NCBI RefSeq assembly: GCF_007746795.1
Contig: NZ_CP036343.1
Location: 2,407,369-2,471,368 of the forward strand
Length of the DNA: 64,000 nucleotides
Source of the DNA: Gimesia algae
GTDB taxonomy: Bacteria; Planctomycetota; Planctomycetia; Planctomycetales; Planctomycetaceae
Direction of reading: 5' to 3'
The notes under the pieces were generated by a model that saw only the letters and a program-made list of their open reading frames with translations, had not been told where the DNA came from and made no database searches. Position numbers and translations under genes: made by a program. This document shows, one piece after another, positions 9,462 to 29,578 of this stretch. How positions within the stretch are numbered: position 1 is the first letter of the stretch; the number at the start of each line of letters is the position of its first letter.

Positions 9462-11090
9462 ATGAGACATTTTCTGATTCTCACCGCCATCCTGCTGTTA
9501 ATGGTGCACGCTCCCCTGCACGCGGGTTCGAAGGATACCCCTGTCGCCACCGGAGAACTGTTAAAAGACTTTGTTCATCCGCAAGTCAATTTCAGCCCGG
9601 GGACAGAATCAAACTCGGAGGCGCGAAAATATCAGGGCATCCCGTCAATTGAACGCGCACCGGACGGTCGCCTGTGGGCAGGCTGGTATGCCGGACCGAT
9701 TAATGAAGACCGCTTCAACTACGTGATGGCCGCCACCAGCGGCGACGATGGCAAGACGTGGAGCGATCTGAAATTCGTAATCAACCCCGATGGCGATGGA
9801 CCACGCCGCGCTTCGGATCCCTGCTTCTGGCTTGATCCTTCCGGCAAACTGTGGTTGTTCTGGTGGATGAACGGCGGAGGCCTGAACGTGACGATGTCGA
9901 TCACCACTGAGAATCCTGATGCGGAAAAACCCACCTGGACCGAACCACGGGCGTTGTTCCCCGGCGTAATGATCAATAAACCGATCGTCACCAGGGACGG
10001 TGAATGGCTCATGCCAGCCGCGATCTGGAAGCAGGACAAAAGTTGTCGTGTCATGGTTTCCCCCGATCAAGGTCGTACCTGGGCTCTGCGCGGTGCTGCC
10101 AACGTTCCGCCCGACCGTCGCAATTGCGATGAACCGATGCTCGTCGAACGACAGGACGGCTCTCTCTGGCTGCTGGTCCGCACCACCGGCTACGGAATCG
10201 GCGATTCCGTCTCCACCGACGGCGGGCGTACGTGGACCGAAGTGAAAGATCATCTCCAGCAAACCACTTCCCGCTTCTATCTCCGGCGACTGGCGTCCGG
10301 AAATCTGTTGTTGATCAAGCATAACGGAATCGACGAACGCGGACGTGGACGTAATCATCTGACCGCCTACCTGTCCGCTGATGACGGTAAATCGTGGAAA
10401 GGAGGGCTGCTGCTGGATGCACGTGATACGGTTTCCTACCCGGACGCCACCCAGGCTCCCGATGGAACCATTTACGTGATTTACGACTGGAACCGTGCGG
10501 ACGAGAAACACATTCTGATGACGACGTTCACTGAAGCTGATGTTCTGTCTGGCAAATATGGAAGTTCCGTAGCGCGTCAGCGTGTACTCATCAACCATGC
10601 AACCGGCATCAACCCGAAGCCCTGGCGGAAGAAGCAGCGTGTCACTTCACTGAATCAGCATGAAAAAGCGGCAGCGCAGCTAAAGGGCCCCGGTACAGAA
10701 CTGAAACCCGTAAACGGAGAAATACGCGACGTGAAACTCGGTGAGGCGATCTTCAGCAACCGCAGTTATACCTTCCACGATCAGTTGCCACAGTTCCTGC
10801 ACGGCGGGCACTTTGTATTCAGTACGATGGAGAATACCGAAGTCGTCTGTAACACACCGGGTGTGGTCTATACCGTGACGCCGCTGCCGGAACGCAACAA
10901 AGACAGCGTCACGAAAGAATTACAGGAACAGGGATTCGAACTGGCTGCCGTTCCCGAATTCGTACTGTTTCTGATGCCAGGCGGACGCGAGATCCCCGGC
11001 AATGTCTGTTCGGTCTATCAACGTCGCGTCGCAGCAGGCGACCGAATCAAGGTCGGCAAATGGGGCGTTCTGTTCACAACACCACGATAA
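9462..11090 (+). CDS. Secreted sialidase-like (BNR-repeat) protein
   Basis: 542 residues with a signal peptide (MRHFLILTAILLLMVHAPLHA). A six-bladed sialidase-type propeller is indicated by Asp-box motifs SGDDGKTW, SPDQGRTW, STDGGRTW and SADDGKSW, and by IPSIERAPDGRLWAGW, which corresponds to the RIP-type active-site strand. The last 130 residues form a separate module with EVVCNTPGVVYTVTP. The same kind of module follows the first propeller in the 938-residue protein at 46872-49688. The protein probably acts on or binds acidic glycans outside the cytoplasm. It starts a plus-strand series with a glycosidase-like gene, a DUF1592 protein and a DUF1552 protein. The exact glycosidic specificity cannot be read from sequence. 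Confidence 0.75.
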   Translation: MRHFLILTAILLLMVHAPLHAGSKDTPVATGELLKDFVHPQVNFSPGTESNSEARKYQGIPSIERAPDGRLWAGWYAGPINEDRFNYVMAATSGDDGKTWSDLKFVINPDGDGPRRASDPCFWLDPSGKLWLFWWMNGGGLNVTMSITTENPDAEKPTWTEPRALFPGVMINKPIVTRDGEWLMPAAIWKQDKSCRVMVSPDQGRTWALRGAANVPPDRRNCDEPMLVERQDGSLWLLVRTTGYGIGDSVSTDGGRTWTEVKDHLQQTTSRFYLRRLASGNLLLIKHNGIDERGRGRNHLTAYLSADDGKSWKGGLLLDARDTVSYPDATQAPDGTIYVIYDWNRADEKHILMTTFTEADVLSGKYGSSVARQRVLINHATGINPKPWRKKQRVTSLNQHEKAAAQLKGPGTELKPVNGEIRDVKLGEAIFSNRSYTFHDQLPQFLHGGHFVFSTMENTEVVCNTPGVVYTVTPLPERNKDSVTKELQEQGFELAAVPEFVLFLMPGGREIPGNVCSVYQRRVAAGDRIKVGKWGVLFTTPR

Positions 11091-11178
11091 TCTCGCACAA
11101 TGCGTTCCAAGTGAACGCAAACGTATTCCTATTTGTGATGCTTTTTCAACCCAGCAACATACCAACAGGAAACTCGTT

Positions 11179-13044
11179 ATGAATGACAACATTGCCACGT
11201 TCATCAGGTTCGCGCTGGTAGTCGGTCTCATCACAACTTCAGAGACATGGCTCATTGCTGCGGAACCGACAACCATTGTTGCCTTCGGTGACTCCACTTC
11301 ACCTGCTCAAAAACAGATTCCACTGACGCACTCAGAGCAGTGGCAGAATTTCAAACAATCAGAACGAATCACGGACCTGACGCGCTGCGTCCCGGAAGAC
11401 GCGTTTTCGGAGGGTCGTCATCATGATAAGTGGAAAGTGTTTGAATATGAAACGGCAGAGTTCTCGGGAAAATGCGTCTCCGTCGGACGTGAGTCATCCG
11501 CGCCGGACCTGACCTTAAAGCTCGGCAAGCAGGGCTGGCACGCCGTCTATATCGGTCTGAGTTCGATTACCGATCTCGTACGCCCCGCGAAGAATAATGT
11601 GGAAGTGAAGTTCACGAGCGACTCTGCTTACACCCGACTGAGCAACCGGCTCAATCTGGGTCCACAACGTCGTGATATGCTGGAAGAAGTATTTCTGGGC
11701 GCCGCTGACCTGACCGACAACGACTTACAGTTCTCCACCGTATACCAGATGCCTGCGCGGATTCATTATGTCAAAACCGTTCCACTGACGGATGAGGAAG
11801 TCGCCAGGTTACTTGCCGATCGTGCTCAAAAGACGACAAAATCAGCAGTGGCAACCTTCGACGGTTATACATGGATTCATCCGTTCCGTCCTCAAAATCG
11901 CGCCGATCTGGCAGCAACGTTTTCCGCGTATCGCGACAGTGATTTCAAGACCTGGTGGTTTCAGGTCGGCGGCGCTGATCTGGTCCATCACCCGAGCCAG
12001 GTGGGTAACCTGATGGGGGGGCACCTTGATACATTCCCGAGGGAAGTCGATCGCGAGTATGTCGAATCGGTTCGCCATCTGCATCAGCAGGGGATCGACC
12101 CTCTGAAAGTGGCCGTTGAGGAAGCACACCGTCAAGAGGCGGAAATCCTGGTCTGCCTGCGTGCCGCCGGTTGGAAAGCAGCGCCGCCGTGGGAGGAATT
12201 CTTCATGAGTGATTTTTACGAAGCACACCCCGAATGGCGCTGCATCGATTATGACGGAACGCCGACGATGCATCTCAGCTACGCCGCCGAGGAGGTCCAG
12301 GATCATCTGATCGAAGTCTACCGCGAAGCACTGCAGCGGGGCGCAGACGGCGCAGGCTTTCTCTTTCATCGAGGCATGCCCATGATTCTGTGGGAAGAAC
12401 CGTTCTGTCAGCGGTTCATCAAAGAACACGGTGATAATCCTCGCGATCTGGCCGAAGACGATCCACGCGTGCTCCAGTTGCGAGCGAAGATCGTCACGCA
12501 GTTCGTTCGCAAAATACGGACAATGCTGGATGAAACTTCGTCTCAGCGCGGAAACGCCAAACGCCGTCTCAAACTTGCCGTTTCCACATTTTCTTCCCGC
12601 GCCGATAATCAGAAGTTCGGGCTGGATGTGGAACGCTGGATTGAAGAGAAACTGATTGATCAGATCGGCATTGCCTGGTTCGCTTACTATACCAGTGGTC
12701 TGAAATCGAAGTCGGGAGACACAGCTTACTACGCACGCATCACGGAGGGGACAAATGTGAAAATCTTTCCCTTCTATGTTGGCTGGAAAATGGAAAGTGC
12801 GGACAGTCTGCTTAAGTCTGTCGCGAGGGACTATGACCATGGAGCCGATGGGATCGCAGTCTGGGATCCGAATCAGTTTGTCACCTGGCAAAAAGGCCAC
12901 AATCCTTATTGGCCCCTTGTTTCAAAGCTCGGTCATCGCCAGCAAATCCGCGCTGGTTCGTTAATCTTCAAACCCACTGCCATCCCACTCACGAGACTCG
13001 GCGAAAATCACTATAGCCGCTGGTATCCGAATACCGGATTTTAA
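11179..13044 (+). CDS. Secreted TIM-barrel glycoside-hydrolase-like protein
   Basis: 621 residues from the ATG at 11179, which has AGGAAA 6-7 bases upstream; the open frame reaches back to 11002 but overlaps the previous gene. A signal peptide (ATFIRFALVVGLITTSETWLIAAEP) is followed by TIVAFGDSTS, which resembles the start of an SGNH hydrolase, but no SGNH blocks follow. Residues about 230-600 (TWWFQVGGADLVHHPS, EAEILVCLRAAGWKA, LQRGADGAGFLFHRG, DHGADGIAVWDPNQF) fit a GHL10-type TIM barrel. It lies 88 bases after the sialidase-like gene and probably works with it on an extracellular glycan. Substrate unknown. The hybrid-looking N-terminus is odd. Confidence 0.6.
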   Translation: MNDNIATFIRFALVVGLITTSETWLIAAEPTTIVAFGDSTSPAQKQIPLTHSEQWQNFKQSERITDLTRCVPEDAFSEGRHHDKWKVFEYETAEFSGKCVSVGRESSAPDLTLKLGKQGWHAVYIGLSSITDLVRPAKNNVEVKFTSDSAYTRLSNRLNLGPQRRDMLEEVFLGAADLTDNDLQFSTVYQMPARIHYVKTVPLTDEEVARLLADRAQKTTKSAVATFDGYTWIHPFRPQNRADLAATFSAYRDSDFKTWWFQVGGADLVHHPSQVGNLMGGHLDTFPREVDREYVESVRHLHQQGIDPLKVAVEEAHRQEAEILVCLRAAGWKAAPPWEEFFMSDFYEAHPEWRCIDYDGTPTMHLSYAAEEVQDHLIEVYREALQRGADGAGFLFHRGMPMILWEEPFCQRFIKEHGDNPRDLAEDDPRVLQLRAKIVTQFVRKIRTMLDETSSQRGNAKRRLKLAVSTFSSRADNQKFGLDVERWIEEKLIDQIGIAWFAYYTSGLKSKSGDTAYYARITEGTNVKIFPFYVGWKMESADSLLKSVARDYDHGADGIAVWDPNQFVTWQKGHNPYWPLVSKLGHRQQIRAGSLIFKPTAIPLTRLGENHYSRWYPNTGF

Positions 13045-13285
13045 AAACCTGCCCTGCCTCGGCGAATGACATCAGTCACGCGACTGAGTGTTCTGTTGTT
13101 TTTTTGGCTGCACTGCACTCCTATCCTAGCGGGACGAAAGCAGACGATCAGAACAGCTTCGCTTAAGTTTTAAAACCAATTTGCCCCTCTCCAGCAGATG
13201 CTATGTTTTATGGCTGTTGTTTACAGTCGAATATGCAGAAACTAGAATAAGTGGGTACGAAGATAAGTATCGGAGGAGTTTTGGA

Positions 13286-15211
13286 ATGACATTTACAGAG
13301 GCACGTTTTATCCGCGGCGCGATTGCCATCATGGTGTGGGGCGTCTTGTGGGTTAGCCCGAACACTGGCATGGCTGAGTCAAAAGAGGATGAGTCTCTGG
13401 CGGCACGGAAAGCAGATGCCAAGGAGTTCTTCAGTAAACGTGTCACTCCCTTCATCAAAAAGTATTGCCTGGAGTGTCATCAGAACAGACGACCGACGGA
13501 AGCCGGCCTGACTTTTGACCCGGCTCTGCGTAGTCCCGGTCATGCGGCCTTCAGCGAGAAGTGGAAGAAGTCGGCGGCCCGAGTGAAAGCGCACGACATG
13601 CCGCCGGACGGGTTGGACCAGCCGACCGATCAAGAACGCAAGATGTTTGCTGAATGGCTGGAGAAGGTCAAATATCTCAGCCCGAAAGATCCAGGGCCGT
13701 TTGTCATTCGTCGGTTGACCAAAACGGAATATGGCAACACGCTTCATGATCTGTTGGGTGTCGATCCCAACATCGTCGATAGTCTCCCCGACGAAGTCAG
13801 TGGCGAAGGATATCTCAATTCGCTCTCCCCGCTTCAGCTCGAACAGTATCTGACGATCTCTCAGAAGGTCTTGGATCAGGTTCTGGCACCGGAAGGTGAG
13901 CCACCCACCGAAATACAAAAACAACTCTTTGGGGAATCACCAACGTCTGAGACGGATATCCAAGCGACTGCCCGCAAGGTGGCGCAGTCACTGGCGCGAA
14001 AAGCCTATCGCCGACCGCCTTCCGATGCGGAAATTGATGTTCTACTGAAGGTGTTTGACCTGGGAAGAAAGAACAATCTCAGCTATCAGGCGTCCAGTCG
14101 CCTGATGCTCAAGGCGATTCTGGTCTCTCCCCAGTTTCTCTTTATTACTCCGGCCAAAGAGATCCAGGCTGATAAAGGGATTGTGCCCCTTGATGATTTT
14201 CAGCTCGCGTCTCGACTGTCTTATCTGCTATGGACCACTATGCCCGACGATGAGTTGATGGCGTTGGCTGACCAGGGAAAACTCCACGAGTTGCCGGTCC
14301 TGGAGGCTCAGGTCACGCGGATGCTGATGGACCCGCGATCACGGGCCCTGTTTGATGGCTTTGGTGCGCAGTGGCTGAAGCTGGGAAATCTGCACGATCG
14401 AACCTTTGATCCTGAAAAATTCCCGCAGATGACCGCCGACATGCGCACGGCGATGTACGATGAAGCCCGGCTCTTTTTCGAAAGCATCGTGCGTGAGAAC
14501 CGCAGCGTTGCCGGTTTTATAGACAGCGATTACACCTTCCTCAATGAAAACCTGGCCACGCTGTATGGTTTGGAAAAAACAGTCACCGGCCCCGAGATGC
14601 GCAAAGTCAAACTGACCAACGGCAATCGAGGCGGAATTCTGGGAATGCCCGGCGTGCTGGCGGCGACTTCCTTTCCCAATCGTACCAGCCCGGTGAATCG
14701 AGGCGTTTGGGTCCTGGAACAGGTACTCGGGGACCATGTGCCAGCTGCCCCGCCCGATGTTCCGGCATTGGAGAAACAGGATCAAAAACAGGTCGCCAAG
14801 CTGTCGCTCCGCGAGCGCACTGAACTGCACCGCGCCGATCCTGTCTGCGCCAATTGCCATCGATTACTCGACCCGATCGGGTTCGGGCTGGAAAACTTCG
14901 ATGCCATTGGACGCTGGCGAGACCAGGACGACAACGGTCAGACCATCGATGCCTCAGGAGAACTTCCGGGGGGCAAGCATTTTTCCAACCCCAGAGAATT
15001 AAAAGCCATGATCGCTGAACACAAGGCAAAGTTTTCTCGCAATCTGGTCGAACGCCTGTTAGCCTATGCTTTATGCCGAAAGCTTGAAGGTTATGACGAG
15101 ATTGTGATCGATGAGTTGATGCAGAAGATCGCGAAAGACAACTACCGTATGCAGACGCTGATCACCGAGGTCGTCACCAGCTATCCCTTCACGCATCGAC
15201 GCATCGAGTGA
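13286..15211 (+). CDS. DUF1587/1595/1592/1588/1585 heme protein
   Basis: 641 residues from the ATG at 13286, with CGGAGGAG 7 bases upstream; a longer frame from 13181 lacks such a site. A signal/anchor segment ([19 protein letters not shown]) is followed by an N-terminal planctomycete cytochrome-type motif YCLECHQN. Then come the DUF1587 block ([19 protein letters not shown]), DUF1595 ([19 protein letters not shown]), DUF1592 ([18 protein letters not shown]), DUF1588 with a second heme motif [19 protein letters not shown], and DUF1585 at the end. Two CxxCH motifs imply covalent heme and export. These proteins are almost always paired with DUF1552, as here. Proposed roles (periplasmic redox or glycan degradation) remain unproven. 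Confidence 0.85.
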
Positions 15212-15308
15212 CCCGCGAACCGTATATTAGATGATTATTGGACGACGGAGTTGCAAACTGTCGTGCAAAGAATCCCTTTTCCTCCGCAACCCACCTGAAG
15301 GCCTTCCC

Positions 15309-16697
<1,389 letters not shown>

Positions 16698-17034: not shown

Positions 17035-17280
17035 TTATTCATCGAATATCCCTTGGCTTGATGCACCATAAAAAACACGAGTTAAATCCGTCATTACACC
17101 TACAATCCCAGATTGCTGAAGAGCACCGTTTCTCGGAACATAGAGTGCCATACCGAAATACGTAAACGGTGGTTTTTCTACAAATCTTACAGCTAACGAG
17201 AGTGTGGGATCTTCCTGGTCGTGTCGTAAGGCGGCTATCGGATCAATCCGTGCGGTCCTGCGCGCGGGTAGCGAGATCAC
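17035..17280 (-). pseudogene. Remnant of an FtsX/MacB-type ABC permease C-terminus
   Basis: The 81-residue frame begins with SLPARRTARIDPIAALRHD, which is the characteristic final segment of MacB/FtsX-type ABC permeases (PARRAARxDPIxALR). The rest of the permease (four membrane segments, periplasmic domain) is missing; upstream in this frame lies the 3' end of the sulfatase gene. The GTG at 17280 overlaps the sulfatase stop, so it might still be translated by coupling. The tail after RHD has no recognisable domain. I read it as a truncated relic left after a rearrangement that placed the sulfatase gene next to it. The short match makes this moderately uncertain. Confidence 0.4.
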
Positions 17281-18674
17281 ATCGGGGCAATCCGTTTGGA
17301 GCCGACATCGGTTGTCAAGACGACATGGCTATTAAAGCTCTTTAATATCAACTGCTGTTTGGCAGCCTGATGCTCCGGGTCGTCCCATAAGTTGTTGTGT
17401 TCCCAGGGATCCGTTTGCAAATCGTAAAGCTCTCCTAAATCCTTGTTGTGATACAGAGATAATTTATACCGATCGTCGCGATACATGGTCGCAAAACTGC
17501 CATCCCCGCCCGTGAAAAACGGATCGAGTGCGTCAAAGTATTCACAGCGAACACTATCGCGAATTTGTGCGCCCGTTTGTTCTCCTGTGAGTACCGGGAG
17601 CAAGCTCTGCCCCTGATGATAGTCAGGGATGGGAGTCCCCGTTAAATCGAGTAATGTGGCAGAAAGATCGAGTAATTCCACAAGCCCGGTTGCACGCTGG
17701 TTGGCCATAAAGTGTCCCGGCCAGGAAAAAATCAACGGTACCCGTACCAATCCTTCATAAAACCGACATCCCTTTTGTACCAGCCCATGATCTCCCAACG
17801 TCTCACCATGGTCTGAAGTGAATATGATGACCGTATTATCTCTCTGTCCTGTTAATTCTAATGCGTTGAGTATGCGCGCAAACTGATCGTCAATTTGAGC
17901 AATCATTGCATAATAAAGTGCCTGAATTTTTTGCAGCTCACTTGTTTCCGTTGAGATCGTGACAGGCTGAAAATCAACCTGGGAAAGCAATTCTTGAGTC
18001 GCCTTATCAGACTCCTCAAAATGTGGACCGGGCATAGCGGCAGGGTCGAACATATTCGCATATTTTTCAGGAGGAATAAACGGGGGGTGCGGGTCATAGA
18101 TATTGATATTCAGCAACCAGGGTTGTTGATGATCTTGTTCGATAAATTCGATCGCCCGATCAGATGCCCACTTTGTCTGATGATATTCGGGGTCAACACC
18201 CTCTTTGCTGTTTCGCATGTCATCCAGACTTTTCCCTTGAGCGCGCACCCAGTCGGCATAATCGTGTGTTCCTGCAGGCCAATCATCACGCGGGGCATGG
18301 CTGTGCAGCCACAGTGTGAACCCATCATCAAGCCGAGGTTCCGCGCGATGGCCGGCACTCACTAAATGGAATTTCCCAATCAACCCGCACAGGTAACCGC
18401 TCTCTGCGATCAACCTGCTAATTAGAGGTGGCCAATCAGGAAAGGTGTCGTTGCCATTTCTGGTATTGTGTAAGCGCGAAGGATACAACCCGCTCATAAA
18501 ACTCGCCCTGCTGGGGGTACAGATTGGACTTTGACAATACGCATGGGTAAAGGCCACCCCCTCTTCAACGAGCGAATCAACCACAGGTGTTTTCACATAC
18601 GCGTTCCCCAGCGCACCAATGGTGTCAAACCGTTGCTGGTCGGTGCAATACCATAATATATTAGGGCGGGTCAT
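17277..18674 (-). CDS. Cytoplasmic sulfatase of the arylsulfatase/choline-sulfatase type
   Basis: 465 residues without signal peptide or membrane segment. The N-terminus (PNILWYCTDQQRFDTIGAL) supplies the first metal Asp. CTPSR at 52-56 is the C-x-P-S-R motif whose Cys is converted to formylglycine by a maturing enzyme. FTSDHGETLGDHGL gives the second metal/active-site block. It hydrolyses an organic sulfate ester to alcohol plus sulfate. Most planctomycete sulfatases are exported; this one appears cytosolic, like choline sulfatase BetC. AAGG lies 7 bases before the ATG. It follows the fused tricarboxylate-type transporter by 89 bases on the same strand, suggesting that the transporter brings in its substrate. 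Confidence 0.85.
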   Translation of the reverse strand: MTRPNILWYCTDQQRFDTIGALGNAYVKTPVVDSLVEEGVAFTHAYCQSPICTPSRASFMSGLYPSRLHNTRNGNDTFPDWPPLISRLIAESGYLCGLIGKFHLVSAGHRAEPRLDDGFTLWLHSHAPRDDWPAGTHDYADWVRAQGKSLDDMRNSKEGVDPEYHQTKWASDRAIEFIEQDHQQPWLLNINIYDPHPPFIPPEKYANMFDPAAMPGPHFEESDKATQELLSQVDFQPVTISTETSELQKIQALYYAMIAQIDDQFARILNALELTGQRDNTVIIFTSDHGETLGDHGLVQKGCRFYEGLVRVPLIFSWPGHFMANQRATGLVELLDLSATLLDLTGTPIPDYHQGQSLLPVLTGEQTGAQIRDSVRCEYFDALDPFFTGGDGSFATMYRDDRYKLSLYHNKDLGELYDLQTDPWEHNNLWDDPEHQAAKQQLILKSFNSHVVLTTDVGSKRIAPM

Positions 18675-18763: not shown

Positions 18764-21682
18764 TTAAGGCAGCACAACAGAGAATACCGATGTGAACACA
18801 ATTTCTGTACCCAAACCAGTCAACAAAGCGAGTTCGATGAGAATTAACAAATAGTTCGGTCGCCATTTTGCCATAGATCCTCCAGTTACGGTAACCATTA
18901 ATGCTGTTGCCAGCCAGTAATTGAACCAGCCCTGATCTAACACCAGCACATAACAGCAAAGCAGTACAAAACAACAAATGGTCAGCCAGATGCGCGGCTT
19001 GCAGTTTGAGAATCTATTTGTTGACGGTGTTTGACTGAGAAATTTATCCTGTACGAGGACAATGCTTAACAATAAGAGAGTTGCAAGGATAATATAGAAA
19101 GGAAAATCCGGAAGCTGAACTGTTGAGCCGGGAACCAGTTCGCTGAAGATATTCTCACTTTGGCTGATATTCTCATTTAATTTCTCGTCCCGATAATACA
19201 CAGGTGCAATAGACAACGCCCGCAAACTATTCCTTACAGAATCAGATTGCATCGCCTGTTCCAGTGCATCTGCCAGCAGATCAATCCGCTCTTGCGGAGT
19301 CCCTTTGGGTGCAAACCAGTATAACGAGTTACCAACCACAGCATCGATACCCTGTTCATGAGCCGTCGAAATGTTCGGCAGGACGGAATTCCTTTCTTTA
19401 GACAATACTGCCAAAGCGCGAATCTGCCCATCTCCTCGATAGGCCAGAAATTCTGCCAGCGAAAAAATGGTGGCATCAATATGACCACCAATGAGCAGCG
19501 TGTATCGATTTTGCCCACCTCCCGATTGCACATAATTAAAATATTCACCACCATAAGCCTGTTCTATTTTTTGGGCAGCGAAATGGGCGAGTGCCCCCAA
19601 ATTGGTTCCAAATTGAACTTCACCAGGATGTTTCTCGGCATAATGCAACAGCTCAGCCAAATTTTTGTGCTGAGCGTTTTGATGCATGACAACTACCAGG
19701 TTGATGTCTCCCGTTTGGGCAATCGGTTCAAACGCCTCCGGACCGTAGTTCACTTTGCCTGAGTATTTCGATGTAATAATACCCTCATGGGTACAGAGTA
19801 TTTTGTAACCATCAGCCCGTGCCTGTTTGACATTTCGGCTTCCAATCGTACCACTGCCCCCTGCCTGATTAATGATGACGACAGGTTGTTTCAACAGCCT
19901 GTTCTCGGTGATTGACTTTTGAATAATTCGGGCAAACAGGTCCGTTCCGCCTCCCGCAGAAAACGGCACAACAGCCTGAACCGGGCGTTGTGGAAATTGC
20001 GTCAGCTCAGATTTATTCGAGAAGAATCCAGTAAACTGAAAGACCGTCATGCCAATAATGGCCATCACCGCAACAGCATGCCATAACGGTAAACCGTATC
20101 GACTCCAAAATGAGTGAGACTCATCTTCAGCGTTTTCACTCAATATTTCTGAGGAATTAAGGGCAGCCGACTCTTCGGCATCATCATGCATGGTCTCTTG
20201 TTTGCTGTCCGATTGTCTGTGGAACCGACGCGCAAGCGGCACAATCAGCAATAAGGCAGAGACGACGACAAAGAGTAAAGAAATGGGCCGGGTGATGATC
20301 GGTAACCAGCTACCATGCGATGACATCAGCCCGGCAGACAAATTTTCTTCAGCAATCGGACCTAACACAAAACCAATTACAAAGGGCGCCAATGGGATTC
20401 GGTTTCGCTCTACTACCAGTCCCAGCAGCCCGAAACCGAGCATCACCCAGACATCGAACATTCGGTTCGACAACGCAAATGCTCCAGCAATGCAAAAGGT
20501 GAGAATAATGGGCAACAAAAAAGGACGTGGAATACGTACCAGTTTTGCCAGAAAACCGACTGATGCCATCATCACCGCAAACATGACCAGGTTTGCCAGA
20601 AAATAGGTTCCCATAATGGTATGCACGAGTTCGGGATGATCACTGAACAACCGCGGACCCGGTTGCAAACCATGCAGAACTAATGCGCCGAGCAAAATGG
20701 CATCGATCACACTACCGGGTATGCCCATCGCCACAAGTGGAATTAAAGCGCCTCCTACAGTCGCATTATTGGCTGCTTCTGAAGCAATAATTCCTTCAGC
20801 AGAACCGGAACCGAATTGCTGCGGCGTTTTGGAACTGTTTTTGGCGGCTGAATAAGCGGCGATCGAGCCGATGTTTGCACCAATGCCGGGAAGAATTCCA
20901 ATCGCTGTTCCAATCAGAGAAGACCGTAACATATTCACCCATTGATTTTTCCAATCTGTGAAAGTCAGCCACACACCCTTGTGCGTTGCCGAGACACGCG
21001 GAACTTTTTGATCAATATTCGCAATATCGCGCAGCACCTGATTAATCGCAAATAATCCAATTAAAACGGGCAACAACTTGAAACCACCATTCAGAGGAGT
21101 GAACCCAAGTGTGAGTCGCACTTCGCCTGTGGCTGCGGAAATTCCCGGCATGGCTGCCAAAATCCCCAATATGCCAGAAAAGAGTGAGCGCGACAGCGAT
21201 GCACCATCAATTGTCGCGATTAACACCAGGGCCATTAAAACCAGCGAGAAATATTCAAAAGGTCCCAATTGTGTTGACCAGCGGGCAATCGGGGCAGACA
21301 AGGTGACTAAAAATACACAGGAAATTAAACCACCCACCAGGGAAGCATAAATTCCCAGCCCCAGCGCACGACCGGGCTGACCTTTTTGCGACATGGGGTA
21401 ACCATCAAGCGTTGTCATAATTGACGCGGGTGTGCCGGGCATTCGCAGGAGCGTCCCGGTAATCAAGCCACCGCTGATTGATCCCACATACATACTCACT
21501 AACAATGTCATCGCCAGTTGAGGATCGAGCGTAAACGTCAACGGCAACGTGAGTGCGATCAGCATGGCACCGGTTAACCCGGGAATAGCACCCACGAAAA
21601 TACCAAGCGATGTTCCCACAAAAATCAGCGTCAGGCTGAGAGGCGTCGATAATTGAACAACTGTGGTTTGAATCGCATCCAT
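18764..21682 (-). CDS. Fused tripartite tricarboxylate transporter (TctA-TctC-TctB)
   Basis: About 972 residues. Residues 1-500 are TctA, the large permease, with about 12 membrane segments and family blocks GIFVGAIPGLTGAMLIALTL and LLPVLIGLFAINQVL. A charged linker and one membrane segment (LPLWHAVAVMAIIGMTVFQF) lead to a TctC/Bug-type periplasmic binding domain, about 570-870 (QAVVPFSAGGGTDLFARI, QPVVIINQAGGSGTIGS). The last 100 residues form a TctB-like unit with four membrane helices. These three are normally separate genes, so a single polypeptide with tethered binding protein is unusual. It imports an organic acid by cation symport. Start chosen at the ATG (21682); a GTG three codons earlier is possible. 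Co-oriented with the sulfatase downstream. Confidence 0.85.
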   Translation of the reverse strand: MDAIQTTVVQLSTPLSLTLIFVGTSLGIFVGAIPGLTGAMLIALTLPLTFTLDPQLAMTLLVSMYVGSISGGLITGTLLRMPGTPASIMTTLDGYPMSQKGQPGRALGLGIYASLVGGLISCVFLVTLSAPIARWSTQLGPFEYFSLVLMALVLIATIDGASLSRSLFSGILGILAAMPGISAATGEVRLTLGFTPLNGGFKLLPVLIGLFAINQVLRDIANIDQKVPRVSATHKGVWLTFTDWKNQWVNMLRSSLIGTAIGILPGIGANIGSIAAYSAAKNSSKTPQQFGSGSAEGIIASEAANNATVGGALIPLVAMGIPGSVIDAILLGALVLHGLQPGPRLFSDHPELVHTIMGTYFLANLVMFAVMMASVGFLAKLVRIPRPFLLPIILTFCIAGAFALSNRMFDVWVMLGFGLLGLVVERNRIPLAPFVIGFVLGPIAEENLSAGLMSSHGSWLPIITRPISLLFVVVSALLLIVPLARRFHRQSDSKQETMHDDAEESAALNSSEILSENAEDESHSFWSRYGLPLWHAVAVMAIIGMTVFQFTGFFSNKSELTQFPQRPVQAVVPFSAGGGTDLFARIIQKSITENRLLKQPVVIINQAGGSGTIGSRNVKQARADGYKILCTHEGIITSKYSGKVNYGPEAFEPIAQTGDINLVVVMHQNAQHKNLAELLHYAEKHPGEVQFGTNLGALAHFAAQKIEQAYGGEYFNYVQSGGGQNRYTLLIGGHIDATIFSLAEFLAYRGDGQIRALAVLSKERNSVLPNISTAHEQGIDAVVGNSLYWFAPKGTPQERIDLLADALEQAMQSDSVRNSLRALSIAPVYYRDEKLNENISQSENIFSELVPGSTVQLPDFPFYIILATLLLLSIVLVQDKFLSQTPSTNRFSNCKPRIWLTICCFVLLCCYVLVLDQGWFNYWLATALMVTVTGGSMAKWRPNYLLILIELALLTGLGTEIVFTSVFSVVLP

Positions 21683-22570
21683 ATTTTGCACTGGTGCAGT
21701 TGACTGCTTGCCGCCTTACTCAACGGAGACCGTTCGATTGTGAATATGTTTGAAGTGAATTGAGTTGTCTCATCCTATCCAGAATATTCAAGGTGATAAA
21801 GCCTGATACTTGAAATTCATTCGCCAGAGTTCAGCTCTGACCCGCCCCATGACTTAAAGCAGTTGCAAGACTTAACCCTTTGCTGTATCAACTGACGTTC
21901 TGTTTCTCAGCTGGAGCGAAAATTGAGTCCGAAAAACGTTGATTTAATCGTTCGTTCCAAAGCCCGTCCCGATGAGAACGATTTGGTCGAGTCTGAATTC
22001 GCAATAACGCACGAGTTCTCAGAACATGTTGGCAGCCAGCGAAATCGGTGATTTTCTCGGAATCCAGAAATACGGATGAGTTGATGCTACAGCGGCGGCC
22101 AGTAGGCGGAGTCTACCTGGGAGCTGGTTCGCCTTCATATGGGACAAAAAAGGTGACTACCTGTAAGACGAATTTCGTATCGGTACTACATGGGCCGCTA
22201 TCGTCAATCCAGATCCGTAGCGGCTGGAACCGTAAATGTAATCAGACAGCGACGTTTCACCTGTCAGCCTCCCCGCGATAAGCGCCCAATGCAACTATTC
22301 TTCTATTTAGAGAATTTTTCTCTCTTTTTTTCTTTTTTCTTTATGTTCACCGGTAAGAATCTGCAAGGTGCTGACAAATACAGTTACATCAGACTGCTTC
22401 CTGGCCAGCGGGCCAAATGGCCCTGTACTCAGAAGGGCCATCAACTGCTTTAGACACTCGGTCCCTGACTACAGGGGGCCTAAAATATGATTCTCAAGGC
22501 CCCTTTTCTATTCGCATCTGAACCATTTGAATGAAATTCTCATAGTCATTTTATACGAGGCCCAGTCAGC
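21683..22570. other. Long intergenic region with leader structures
   Basis: About 890 bases. The left 600 bases contain no supported gene; one frame (about 21924-22050) reads for 40 codons but matches nothing I know. A pyrimidine-rich tract spans 22290-22345. From 22401 to 22507 lie nested GC-rich hairpins in front of the response regulator gene. Confidence 0.45.
22410..22507 (+). promoter_or_regulatory. Attenuator-like leader of the LuxR-type regulator
   Basis: Alternative stems are visible. GGGCC-AAAT-GGCCC (22410-22423) competes with ATGGCCCT/AGGGCCAT (22417-22424 with 22434-22441). GGTCCCTG/CAGGGGGCC (22460-22480) competes with GGGGCCT/AGGCCCC (22475-22481 with 22497-22503), the latter followed by TTTT like an intrinsic terminator. 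AGGCCC at 22558-22563, overlapping the Shine-Dalgarno, could pair with the same GGGCCT strand. The ATG is at 22571. Confidence 0.5.
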
Positions 22571-27064: not shown

Positions 27065-29578
27065 ATGAAATCGATCTCTCTTTTACTGCTGCAGATTTTC
27101 TGTCTGACAGCTGTCTGCACATCGTATCCCGGTTCTGCTGAAGCCGCGGAACTGGTCGGGTACCTTCCCCGACAGGCGAAGACGATTCAACTCACCGACC
27201 CCGATGCCTGTCAGCAGCTGCTGGTAACATTGGAAGATGATCAGAAAGGGACCCAGCGCGATGTGACACGGAAAGTGAAATATGTCCCCTTTCCTGTAGG
27301 AATTGTCAAAGTGACTTCCACAGGTTTTGTGACGCCGCTATCCAATGGCACTGCCACCGTCACAGCCCGGTTAGATGAAAATCTGACGGTAAAATTTCCG
27401 GTGGTAGTTACTTCTTTTGAAAAACAGCGACCTGTTAATTTTTATAATGACGTGATTCCACAACTGACACGGGGTGGATGTAACAGTGGAGCCTGTCATG
27501 GCACGCCTTCCGGAAAGAATAATTTTCATCTTTCCCTGCTTGGTTTTGAACCAGCCAATGATTTCGAATACCTCACGAAAGAATCACTGGGACGCCGCGT
27601 TTCTGCCGCGGCACCGGAAACAAGCTTGCTGCTTCGTAAAGCAACGGGTGAGCTTGCTCACGGTGGTGGAAGTCGCTTTAAAAAGGGAGGCGCAGAATAC
27701 AAACTCATTAAGCGCTGGATACAGGAAGGAATGCATTATGATCCTGAGACCGGCCCGACTGTCAAACACATTGAAATCTATCCTCAGAATCGTGTGCTCC
27801 CGTTACATGCGAAGCAGCAGTTGACGGTTACCGCTTACTTTTCAGATGGAACAACACAGGACATTACCCGTGTCGCAGAGTACAAGCCGAACCAGCCCAA
27901 GATGTCTGAAGTAGATCATCATGGACTGGTAACACTCAAAGACATGACGGGCACCACATCGGTCATGGTTCGCTTTCAGGAACATGTTGCCGTCTTCATG
28001 GCAACCATTCCTTTAGGAAAGCCGACACCCAACCTGCCTGAACCGACGAACTTTATCGACAAGCATATTTTCGCCAAATTAAAAGTTCTGGGACTGCCCC
28101 CCTCAGAAAATTGTGATGACTCCACGTTTCTGCGACGCGTCACCCTCGATATGACAGGGAGAATTCCGACACTCGCACAGACCCGCGAATTTCTATCAGA
28201 CAATCGTCCCGATAAACGGGCGCGAAAAATTGACGAACTGCTGGACAGTCCCGGATACGCTGATGTGTTCGCCGCCAAGTGGGCAGGAATTCTACGCAAT
28301 AAAGCGGGGAGAAATCTGGAACAGATCGCGCGGGAAACATTCGCTTTTCATTCCTGGATCCGCAGCAGTATTTCTTCCAACAAGCCTTATAATCAGTTTG
28401 TCACCGAACTGGTGACGGCACGAGGTAAATCGGGAACCAATCCCGCTGTCTCCTGGTACCGGGCTGTAAAAGACCCTAAAGACCAGATGTCTGATATAGC
28501 CCAGGTTTTTCTGGGTGTGCGAATTCAGTGTGCCCAGTGTCATCATCATCCCTATGAAAAATGGAGCCAGGATGACTTCTACGGATTCCAGGCTTTCTTC
28601 ACGACAATTGGTCGAAAAGAAGTCTATAAACTACCGGAAGATGACACGATCTTTCACAAACGCATGGTTGCCGTCGCGAAAAACCCCAATACTGACCGCG
28701 AGTTGAAACCGACTCCACTGGACGGAGATGCTTTGGACATCCCAGCCCATCGCGATCCACGAATCGATCTGGCAGACTGGATTTCCTCAGCCGAGAATCC
28801 TTTCTTTGCCCGAATGCTCGTGAACCGTTACTGGAAACATTTCTTCGGCCGCGGGCTCGTCGAACCGGAAGATGATATTCGGATTACCAACCCAGCCACT
28901 CATCCGGAACTGCTGGACGAACTTGCTGAATCATTTGTCAAATCGAATTATGATTTGAAGGAATTATGCCGCGTAATTTGTAACAGTCGCACCTATCAGT
29001 TCAGCTCTTTTCCCAATAAATACAATCAGGATGACGACCAGAACTATGCCCGCTACTACCCGCGCCGCTTATCCGCAGAAGTCATGCTGGATGCGATGAA
29101 CGATGCCGCCGGCGCAAAGAACAATTTCAATCATCAACCTGTGGGCGTTCGTGCGGTGGCGTTACCTGATGACTCTGCGAATGTGGAATCATTTTTCCTG
29201 CGAGTCTTTGGTCGTCCGCAGATGGATACCGCCTGCGAATGTGAACGCACAGCCAACGCGGACCTGGCGCAAAGCCTGCATTTGATCAATTCTGACACCA
29301 TGCAGAGTATTCTGTCTGCTTCTGATGGCAGAGCCATACAACTGGCACGCGACAAATCAAAAGATGACCAAACCCACATTACAGAACTCTATTTGCTCGC
29401 CATGTCGAGGCAACCGACCCAGGATGAGCTGGATACGGCTTTGGCTCATCTGGCTAAGAAACGTCAACAGGCTGCAGCAGATCCCAAAAAAACATCTGAA
29501 GAACAGGCTGTGAAAGAAGCTTACGAAGATATTATCTGGGTGGTCATCAATACTAAAGAATTTTTATTCAACCATTAA
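27065..29578 (+). CDS. DUF1549/DUF1553 heme protein with N-terminal Ig-like domains
   Basis: 837 residues with a signal peptide (SLLLLQIFCLTAVCTSYPGSAEA). Residues about 30-125 and 235-310 are Big_2-like immunoglobulin folds (LSNGTATVTARLDE; LTVTAYFSDGTTQDITRVAE). Between them lies a GGCNSGACHG heme-like motif. DUF1549 follows (FLRRVTLDMTGRIPTLAQT, about 355-560) with CAQCHHHPYEKWSQDDFYGF as a second CxxCH site, then DUF1553 (NPFFARMLVNRYWKHFFGRG, about 590-830). The protein is exported, probably binds heme, and is the usual partner of DUF1501. Its function is not established. The next gene starts 5 bases after the stop, so both are co-transcribed. Confidence 0.85.
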   Translation: MKSISLLLLQIFCLTAVCTSYPGSAEAAELVGYLPRQAKTIQLTDPDACQQLLVTLEDDQKGTQRDVTRKVKYVPFPVGIVKVTSTGFVTPLSNGTATVTARLDENLTVKFPVVVTSFEKQRPVNFYNDVIPQLTRGGCNSGACHGTPSGKNNFHLSLLGFEPANDFEYLTKESLGRRVSAAAPETSLLLRKATGELAHGGGSRFKKGGAEYKLIKRWIQEGMHYDPETGPTVKHIEIYPQNRVLPLHAKQQLTVTAYFSDGTTQDITRVAEYKPNQPKMSEVDHHGLVTLKDMTGTTSVMVRFQEHVAVFMATIPLGKPTPNLPEPTNFIDKHIFAKLKVLGLPPSENCDDSTFLRRVTLDMTGRIPTLAQTREFLSDNRPDKRARKIDELLDSPGYADVFAAKWAGILRNKAGRNLEQIARETFAFHSWIRSSISSNKPYNQFVTELVTARGKSGTNPAVSWYRAVKDPKDQMSDIAQVFLGVRIQCAQCHHHPYEKWSQDDFYGFQAFFTTIGRKEVYKLPEDDTIFHKRMVAVAKNPNTDRELKPTPLDGDALDIPAHRDPRIDLADWISSAENPFFARMLVNRYWKHFFGRGLVEPEDDIRITNPATHPELLDELAESFVKSNYDLKELCRVICNSRTYQFSSFPNKYNQDDDQNYARYYPRRLSAEVMLDAMNDAAGAKNNFNHQPVGVRAVALPDDSANVESFFLRVFGRPQMDTACECERTANADLAQSLHLINSDTMQSILSASDGRAIQLARDKSKDDQTHITELYLLAMSRQPTQDELDTALAHLAKKRQQAAADPKKTSEEQAVKEAYEDIIWVVINTKEFLFNH

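Follow-up and report, generated by a model that had tools for sequence, protein, structure and literature searches.

The window, which is the whole stretch of 64,000 nucleotides of Gimesia algae DNA that we analysed, contains a single open reading frame that we consider likely to encode a complete tripartite tricarboxylate transporter (TTT) as one polypeptide. In this polypeptide, the permease TctA would be followed by an acidic cytoplasmic linker, an uncleaved membrane anchor, the binding protein TctC and helices 2-5 of the small membrane subunit TctB. The product is most likely a self-contained TTT symporter with a fixed A:C:B stoichiometry, and its gene is paired with a sulfatase gene. The features are as follows.

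18764..21682, minus strand: fused TctA-TctC-TctB gene, 972 aa, ATG start, with the frame open to a GTG at 21691
20228..21682, minus strand: TctA permease part, residues about 1-485 (PF01970; AlphaFold2 helices)
20102..20227, minus strand: linker, residues 486-527 (charge pattern, length comparison)
20003..20101, minus strand: membrane anchor, residues 528-560, hydrophobic at 536-554
19118..20002, minus strand: TctC binding domain, residues 561-855, Bug/TctC fold (PF03401, fold match, PDB sequence matches)
18767..19117, minus strand: TctB remnant, residues 856-972 (PF07331 model 31-137; AlphaFold2 helices)
17277..18674, minus strand: sulfatase gene (PF00884, PF16347), downstream, after a gap of 89 nt

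The frame runs uninterrupted on the minus strand from 21691 to 18764, which gives 975 aa from the GTG. Translation very probably begins at the ATG at 21682 instead, giving 972 aa, because in the relative G001 a stop codon separates the position of the GTG from that ATG; with this start, the boundaries 18764-21682 in the earlier note are exact. Scanning the 975-aa frame against Pfam with hmmscan identified TctA over the full length of PF01970 (residues 20-439, E 1.4e-140) and TctC (PF03401, residues 587-844, E 2.8e-34), and no TctB was reported for the whole fused protein at E up to 1. When the window's own genome was searched with PF07331 (TctB), the C-terminal part matched at 33.6 bits (E 2.0e-7, cut-off 29.1 bits) over model positions 31-137, leaving the first 30 positions, that is, helix 1, unmatched. 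The domain search that the earlier note had proposed was thus answered by Pfam for TctA and TctC and by the PF07331 genome search for TctB, and the open frame together with these matches bears out the A-C-B order in one frame that it had claimed. The protein therefore carries the features of the TTT family, namely a TctA permease, a Bug-fold TctC and a TctB small membrane subunit. The usual form consists of three separate subunits with a soluble periplasmic TctC, and the rare TctAB fusions also count as members, whereas here all lie in one frame and TctC sits between membrane helices. By this arrangement, the protein would be a variant form of the TTT and not a standard member, with ion-driven uptake of an organic acid as its predicted activity.

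The complete fused frame, encoding the same protein of 972-973 aa, was present in 12 of the 17 genomes of the genus, and in 9 of these 12 the genome is a single contig; a 13th fused copy, in G006, ends at the contig end. The intact frame in 12 of 17 genomes rules out a sequencing or assembly error behind the fusion, and the check for read errors suggested in the earlier note revealed none. The fused gene is absent from G007, G011, G012 and G015, and G012 is a 100% complete genome. Across 66 pairs, the median dN/dS was 0.08 for TctA, 0.49 for the linker, 0.25 for the anchor, 0.17 for TctC and 0.29 for TctB; by these ratios the fused gene is under purifying selection in the 12 genomes. The window's genome also encodes, outside the window, a second TTT (L058:2924-5899) that consists of a lipoprotein-like TctC-TctB followed by its own TctA, which is 36% identical to the fused TctA. 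All but one of the 17 genomes of the genus have a TctA match of this kind, among them the four without the fused gene.

In the TctA part, a glycine-rich motif can be seen by eye twice, at about residues 23-38 and at 258-268, the first copy being approximate, when compared with the motif quoted in the accessible text of PMC5812351. The linker that follows is balanced in charge at 486-500 (3 positive and 3 negative residues) and acidic at 501-527 (0 positive and 8 negative); its length varies by at most one residue among the 12 relatives, and its sequence is loose. AlphaFold2 modelled the anchor as a helix at 534-549 with low confidence (pLDDT under 50), and the charge balance around the anchor, with 1 positive residue before and 1 positive and 1 negative after, is weak on its own. 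None of the 12 fused copies has a lipobox or AxA cleavage motif in the anchor, and 4 of the 12 have a weaker signal-peptidase-like triplet in its exit half. The TctC model (residues 565-852) superposed on Bug27 (2qpq_A) with Z 34.4 and an rmsd of 2.1 Å over 285 aligned residues, and the VPF-AGGG stretch appears by eye to be retained. A PDB sequence search with the fused protein returned TctC-type entries alone among the matches listed. In the PDB fold searches, no TctA or TctB was among the rows listed; TctC filled the list, which is hence uninformative on the TctA fold. The model of the fused protein had a mean pLDDT of 77 and a pTM of 0.52, with TctC at high confidence. Its alignment comprised 63 unpaired rows (2 full-length, 8 TctA and 53 TctC or TctCB), so the model is uninformative on packing. 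A mixed alignment, A3, was dropped because its TctCB rows were placed on TctA, and other mixes were then compared for proper alignment.

The AlphaFold2 model contains four helices in the TctB remnant (860-884, 898-917, 922-937 and 942-966), which are probably helices 2-5 of canonical TctB. Five hydrophobic stretches are common, by eye, to 9 canonical TctB proteins of relatives, and the one canonical TctB that was modelled has five helices (mean pLDDT 73.9). The PF07331 match starts at model position 3 in two canonical TctB proteins, at 32-33 in two other TctCB proteins and at 17-32 in other frames of the size of TctC plus TctB (465-535 aa). The four-helix small subunit described in the earlier note is thus correct in its count, but it is an incomplete TctB. 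The attachment of TctC was probably accompanied by the loss of helix 1, which would allow the periplasmic end of TctC to run into helix 2, and the fused protein shares with the TctC-TctB fusion lineage the feature that TctC leads directly into a TctB lacking helix 1. The loops after TctB helices 2 and 4 are positive (residues 885-902, 3 positive and 0 negative; 937-943, 2 positive and 0 negative), and together with the linker charges they fit a topology with TctC outside and both loops inside. The binding domain does follow a membrane helix, as the earlier note had it, since the anchor at 536-554 precedes TctC. The tether is not a single helix, however, because the TctB helices from residue 860 form a second one: TctC is tied down on either side, through the preceding helix, which is apparently not cleaved, and through the TctB that follows.

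Overall, we provide a putative mechanism for this one-chain transporter, in which topology, intramolecular hand-over and ion coupling are all predictions from sequence and model. TctA would act as an ion-coupled permease whose C-terminus lies in the cytoplasm, from where the short acidic linker would lead into an uncleaved signal-anchor helix. This helix would carry TctC into the periplasm, and TctC would continue straight into TctB helices 2-5. TctC would catch the substrate and pass it to the TctA of the same molecule, with TctB acting as a scaffold or docking part. The fixed local concentration of the binder, and a binder that is not shared between permeases, as the earlier note proposed, would follow from this anatomy, and both predictions would hold for the two-protein relatives too.

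Outside the genus, no unbroken full-length match was among the matches listed for 170 genomes of the order (including the 17 of the genus; at most five candidates per genome scored). None was listed either for 392 genomes of the phylum (including 10 of the genus), for 337 genomes from the phylum of a Verrucomicrobiota locus or for 349 genomes from the phylum of a Rhizobiaceae locus, with at most two candidates per genome scored in these three sets; the order and phylum sets overlap. Five matches running from TctA to TctC were listed (G374, G552, G1088 twice and G1185), each with at least one internal stop. G374 and G1185 were fetched as candidate fusions, and TctC was in a separate open frame in both; TctC was likewise in a separate frame where long open frames surround TctA in G307, G332, G767, G904, G934 and G1223. 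Upstream extensions of TctA in L158, L160 and L175 matched neither the TctB model nor any Pfam family other than TctA itself. Another lineage is one stop short of an A-C fusion: at L176:1511-4252 of G1185, a single TAG separates a distant TctA from the TctC behind it, both in the same reading frame, which gives an A-then-C order. Plasmid records matched in 1006 cases, and in 125 of them a single place accounts for at least 80% of the query; on each of the 12 records surveyed out of the 1006, the genes are annotated separately.

A contig scan with a TctA-based alignment yielded 313 loci, and we surveyed the best 80, a selection that may omit records near the window. These comprised 1 fused locus, 22 with tctA then tctCB (A-CB), 44 in which TctA comes after TctC or TctCB, and 13 A-only loci, in which no TctC was found on the same strand. 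The 44 loci divide into 32 with CB-A order and 12 with a short TctC frame. Ten of these 12 are proteobacterial C-B-A loci by layout, with a separate TctB readable in nine; of the remaining two, L106 is truncated by the end of its contig, and L146 has no room for tctB because its TctC and tctA frames overlap. In either gene order, the TctC frame is long enough to include TctB in 54 of the 80 nearest loci, and the part after TctC scored 18-67 bits with the TctB model in all but L108, which ends at a contig end. Because TctC and TctB already share one protein at these 54 loci, the tethering of TctC would be older than the three-way fusion. The survey of relatives proposed in the earlier note thus located the three-way fusion, among the matches listed, in one genus, but the tethering is not new, as the two-protein relatives have TctCB as well. 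G443 and G445, from the same family as the fused genus, have an A-then-CB pair.

In the TctA tree (91 rows, quick method, midpoint root; L144, with a split TctA, left out), the 13 fused rows, which represent 12 genomes with one entered twice, formed a group with one cut-off row (SH-aLRT 100). Next to this group stood every one of the 22 A-then-CB rows plus a single A-only row, with a joint support of 96. In the CB tree (77 rows; L108, with its cut-off TctC, and L078 left out), the fused rows were supported at 100/100. The best CB tree placed one CB-A row and one C-B-A row inside the fused/A-then-CB group, and a tree holding the fused rows with the A-then-CB rows was not rejected (p-AU 0.37). 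Near-identical rows (over 93% in a simple comparison) had been removed. At 20 of the 22 A-then-CB loci, a start codon (17 ATG, 3 GTG) overlaps the tctA stop by 4 bases. As the TctA tree has a midpoint root, we infer the direction of the history that these data suggest. Separate C-B-A genes would have come first, after which TctC would have joined TctB with the loss of TctB helix 1; the gene order would then have turned round to A-CB with the 4-base overlap; finally, A and CB would have joined into one frame in one genus. TctA is predicted to begin inside in the available text of PMC5812351. Joining CB to A in that order would require an additional helix, because TctB here would end outside and TctA begin inside, whereas the A-CB joint would need none. 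A lipoprotein-like signal stands at the TctCB N-terminus at 8 of the 32 CB-A loci, and a lipobox-like match at 1 of the 22 A-then-CB loci looks by eye like chance. Such a signal must be N-terminal and would likewise prevent a fusion.

The same data can be read in other ways. The overlapping A-CB pair may have drifted neutrally into one frame, so that the fused protein would work as the two-protein relatives do; this is a real possibility that we would put somewhat short of even, and it is compatible with a complete TTT on one chain. The neighbouring group already has a tethered TctC and mostly overlapping genes, so that the fusion adds a covalent link alone. Retention in all 12 genomes with a complete gene and a steady linker length count against drift, and they speak weakly either way. 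We consider it improbable that one frame gives two working products, through a protease that cuts the flexible linker or through an internal start that yields TctCB as well. The loose linker with its dN/dS of 0.49, and the signal-peptidase-like triplet in 4 of 12 copies, would allow a cut, but the linker length is constant within one residue and all 12 copies lack a lipobox or AxA motif. At codon 498, 8 of the 12 copies have ATG or TTG and the other 4 have TTA, and between residues 485 and 544 no position has a start codon in all 12, which speaks against an internal start for TctCB. Promoter-like matches in the region numbered 8 against 8.6 expected by chance, and of the two on the minus strand, neither lies inside the fused gene.

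A different origin of the anchor would place TctC as an insertion in the periplasmic loop that connects TctB helix 1 to helix 2, with the anchor itself being helix 1. TctB does begin near helix 2 after TctC, and the topology would fit exactly. The anchor also lowered the TctB score less than decoy TctA helices did (window, -0.7 versus -2.5 bits; A-CB, -1.6 versus -2.1; CB-A, -1.0 versus -1.9). However, the average score is still lower with the anchor than without it, decoys matched it in 6 of 40 cases for the window (medians of 17 of 40 for the 22 A-CB rows and 7 of 40 for the 32 CB-A rows), and 8 of the 32 CB-A relatives have a lipoprotein-like signal in its place. The sequence test therefore hints at best faintly at the anchor as helix 1, and we regard the insertion as unlikely. 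It is conceivable, but in our view doubtful, that a one-chain transporter whose binder is clamped at both ends combines an anchor that replaces the lost TctB helix 1 with hand-over within one molecule and an order reversal that had to come first because the A-to-CB joint alone would keep both ends in the cytoplasm. The reading that we prefer is the complete TTT on one polypeptide, with an uncleaved anchor ahead of TctC and TctB helices 2-5 behind it.

TctCBA of Salmonella (TTT, TC 2.A.80) contains the same three families (PF01970, PF03401 and PF07331), but it is encoded by three genes in the order C-B-A with a free TctC, whereas the fused gene gives one polypeptide in the order A-C-B with TctC held at the membrane and TctB lacking helix 1. 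The planctomycete and verrucomicrobial TctC-TctB proteins have the same C-then-B order, and TctB starts near helix 2 in those that were checked. Unlike the fused protein, they have a separate TctA, which is about 57-70% identical to the fused TctA, and their N-terminus is a signal-anchor-like helix or the lipoprotein-like signal mentioned above. Among TRAP transporters, the accessible parts of PMC5812351 and PMC8276074 describe fusions with the same logic, in which the membrane subunits (SiaQM) or, rarely, the binder and the small subunit (P-Q) are joined, and they describe no P-Q-M triple fusion. TRAP and TTT proteins share no sequence similarity according to the review, as far as its available text goes, and the QM fusion needs an extra helix, unlike the A-CB joint. 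The TAXI-GltS fusions of Lachnospiraceae also join a binding protein to a secondary transporter, but they belong to other families, have the binder at the N-terminus and, in the accessible text of PMC12344293, come with no mention of a small subunit. In the excerpts seen, the ABC importers GlnPQ and OpuA are likewise described with a covalently held binding domain. These importers are ATP-driven, and their permease is unrelated to TctA.

The TTT is presented as three proteins in the available part of PMC5812351, with a TctAB fusion mentioned as a rare possibility. We found no report of a TctC-TctB or three-way fusion in the titles and abstract openings of the open-access literature covered, whose coverage is incomplete. 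One genus would make as a single protein an importer that others build from three and its relatives from two, and these relatives preserve a readable path of gene fusion. In some bacteria, TctC binders far outnumber TTT permeases, which raises the question of sharing (PMC5994714, as excerpted), and a lineage in which each permease carries its own binder would offer a clean contrast. The one-chain form would also fix the stoichiometry and may help structural work; one group failed to purify TctB (PMC13390454, as excerpted).

The sulfatase encoded downstream begins MTRPNILWY, with no signal peptide visible by eye. It is likely co-transcribed with the fused gene, judging from the sequence, and no minus-strand terminator match lies between the two. 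The fused genes in L078 and L071-L074 have a sulfatase neighbour too; the gaps at L071-L074 were worked out by hand. Among the relatives, a related sulfatase lies directly downstream on the same strand at 10 of the 32 CB-A loci (67-72% identical; that of L148 is 78% identical over only 140 residues) and in the same position and orientation at 6 of the 13 A-only loci (67-72%), and at none of the 12 C-B-A loci. At 8 of the 22 A-CB loci (L087, L088, L092, L093, L095, L098, L110 and L118), the place is held by a different sulfatase with 30-33% identity, as if the enzyme had been swapped and the place kept. The link is incomplete, as judged across these loci, and 13 CB-A, 6 A-CB, 4 A-only and 3 C-B-A loci have no relative of the sulfatase despite over 700 nt of room. 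Downstream of a canonical TTT in Rhizobiaceae (L142, 7662-11747) lie an enolase-like protein, part of a galactarate/altronate dehydratase and, about 2.8 kb away, a sulfatase 64-65% identical to that of the window. At L137:7638-11722, the frames match those of L142 in size, and the same sulfatase is present. The substrate is probably an organic acid. Because sugar-acid enzymes and a sulfatase lie near this canonical relative, we tentatively suggest that it may be a sugar acid, either sulfated or plain.

Near the transporter lies a DUF1552 (HXXSHH) gene (window 15231-16697), and genes with a start similar by eye stand immediately beside the TctCB or TctC gene of two relatives, at L059:3806-5110 and L070:8654-9970. 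The wider surroundings are of planctomycete type, with BNR-repeat, GHL10, PSD/PSCyt and HXXSHH proteins at 9462-16697 and a DUF1549/DUF1553 protein at 27065-29578.
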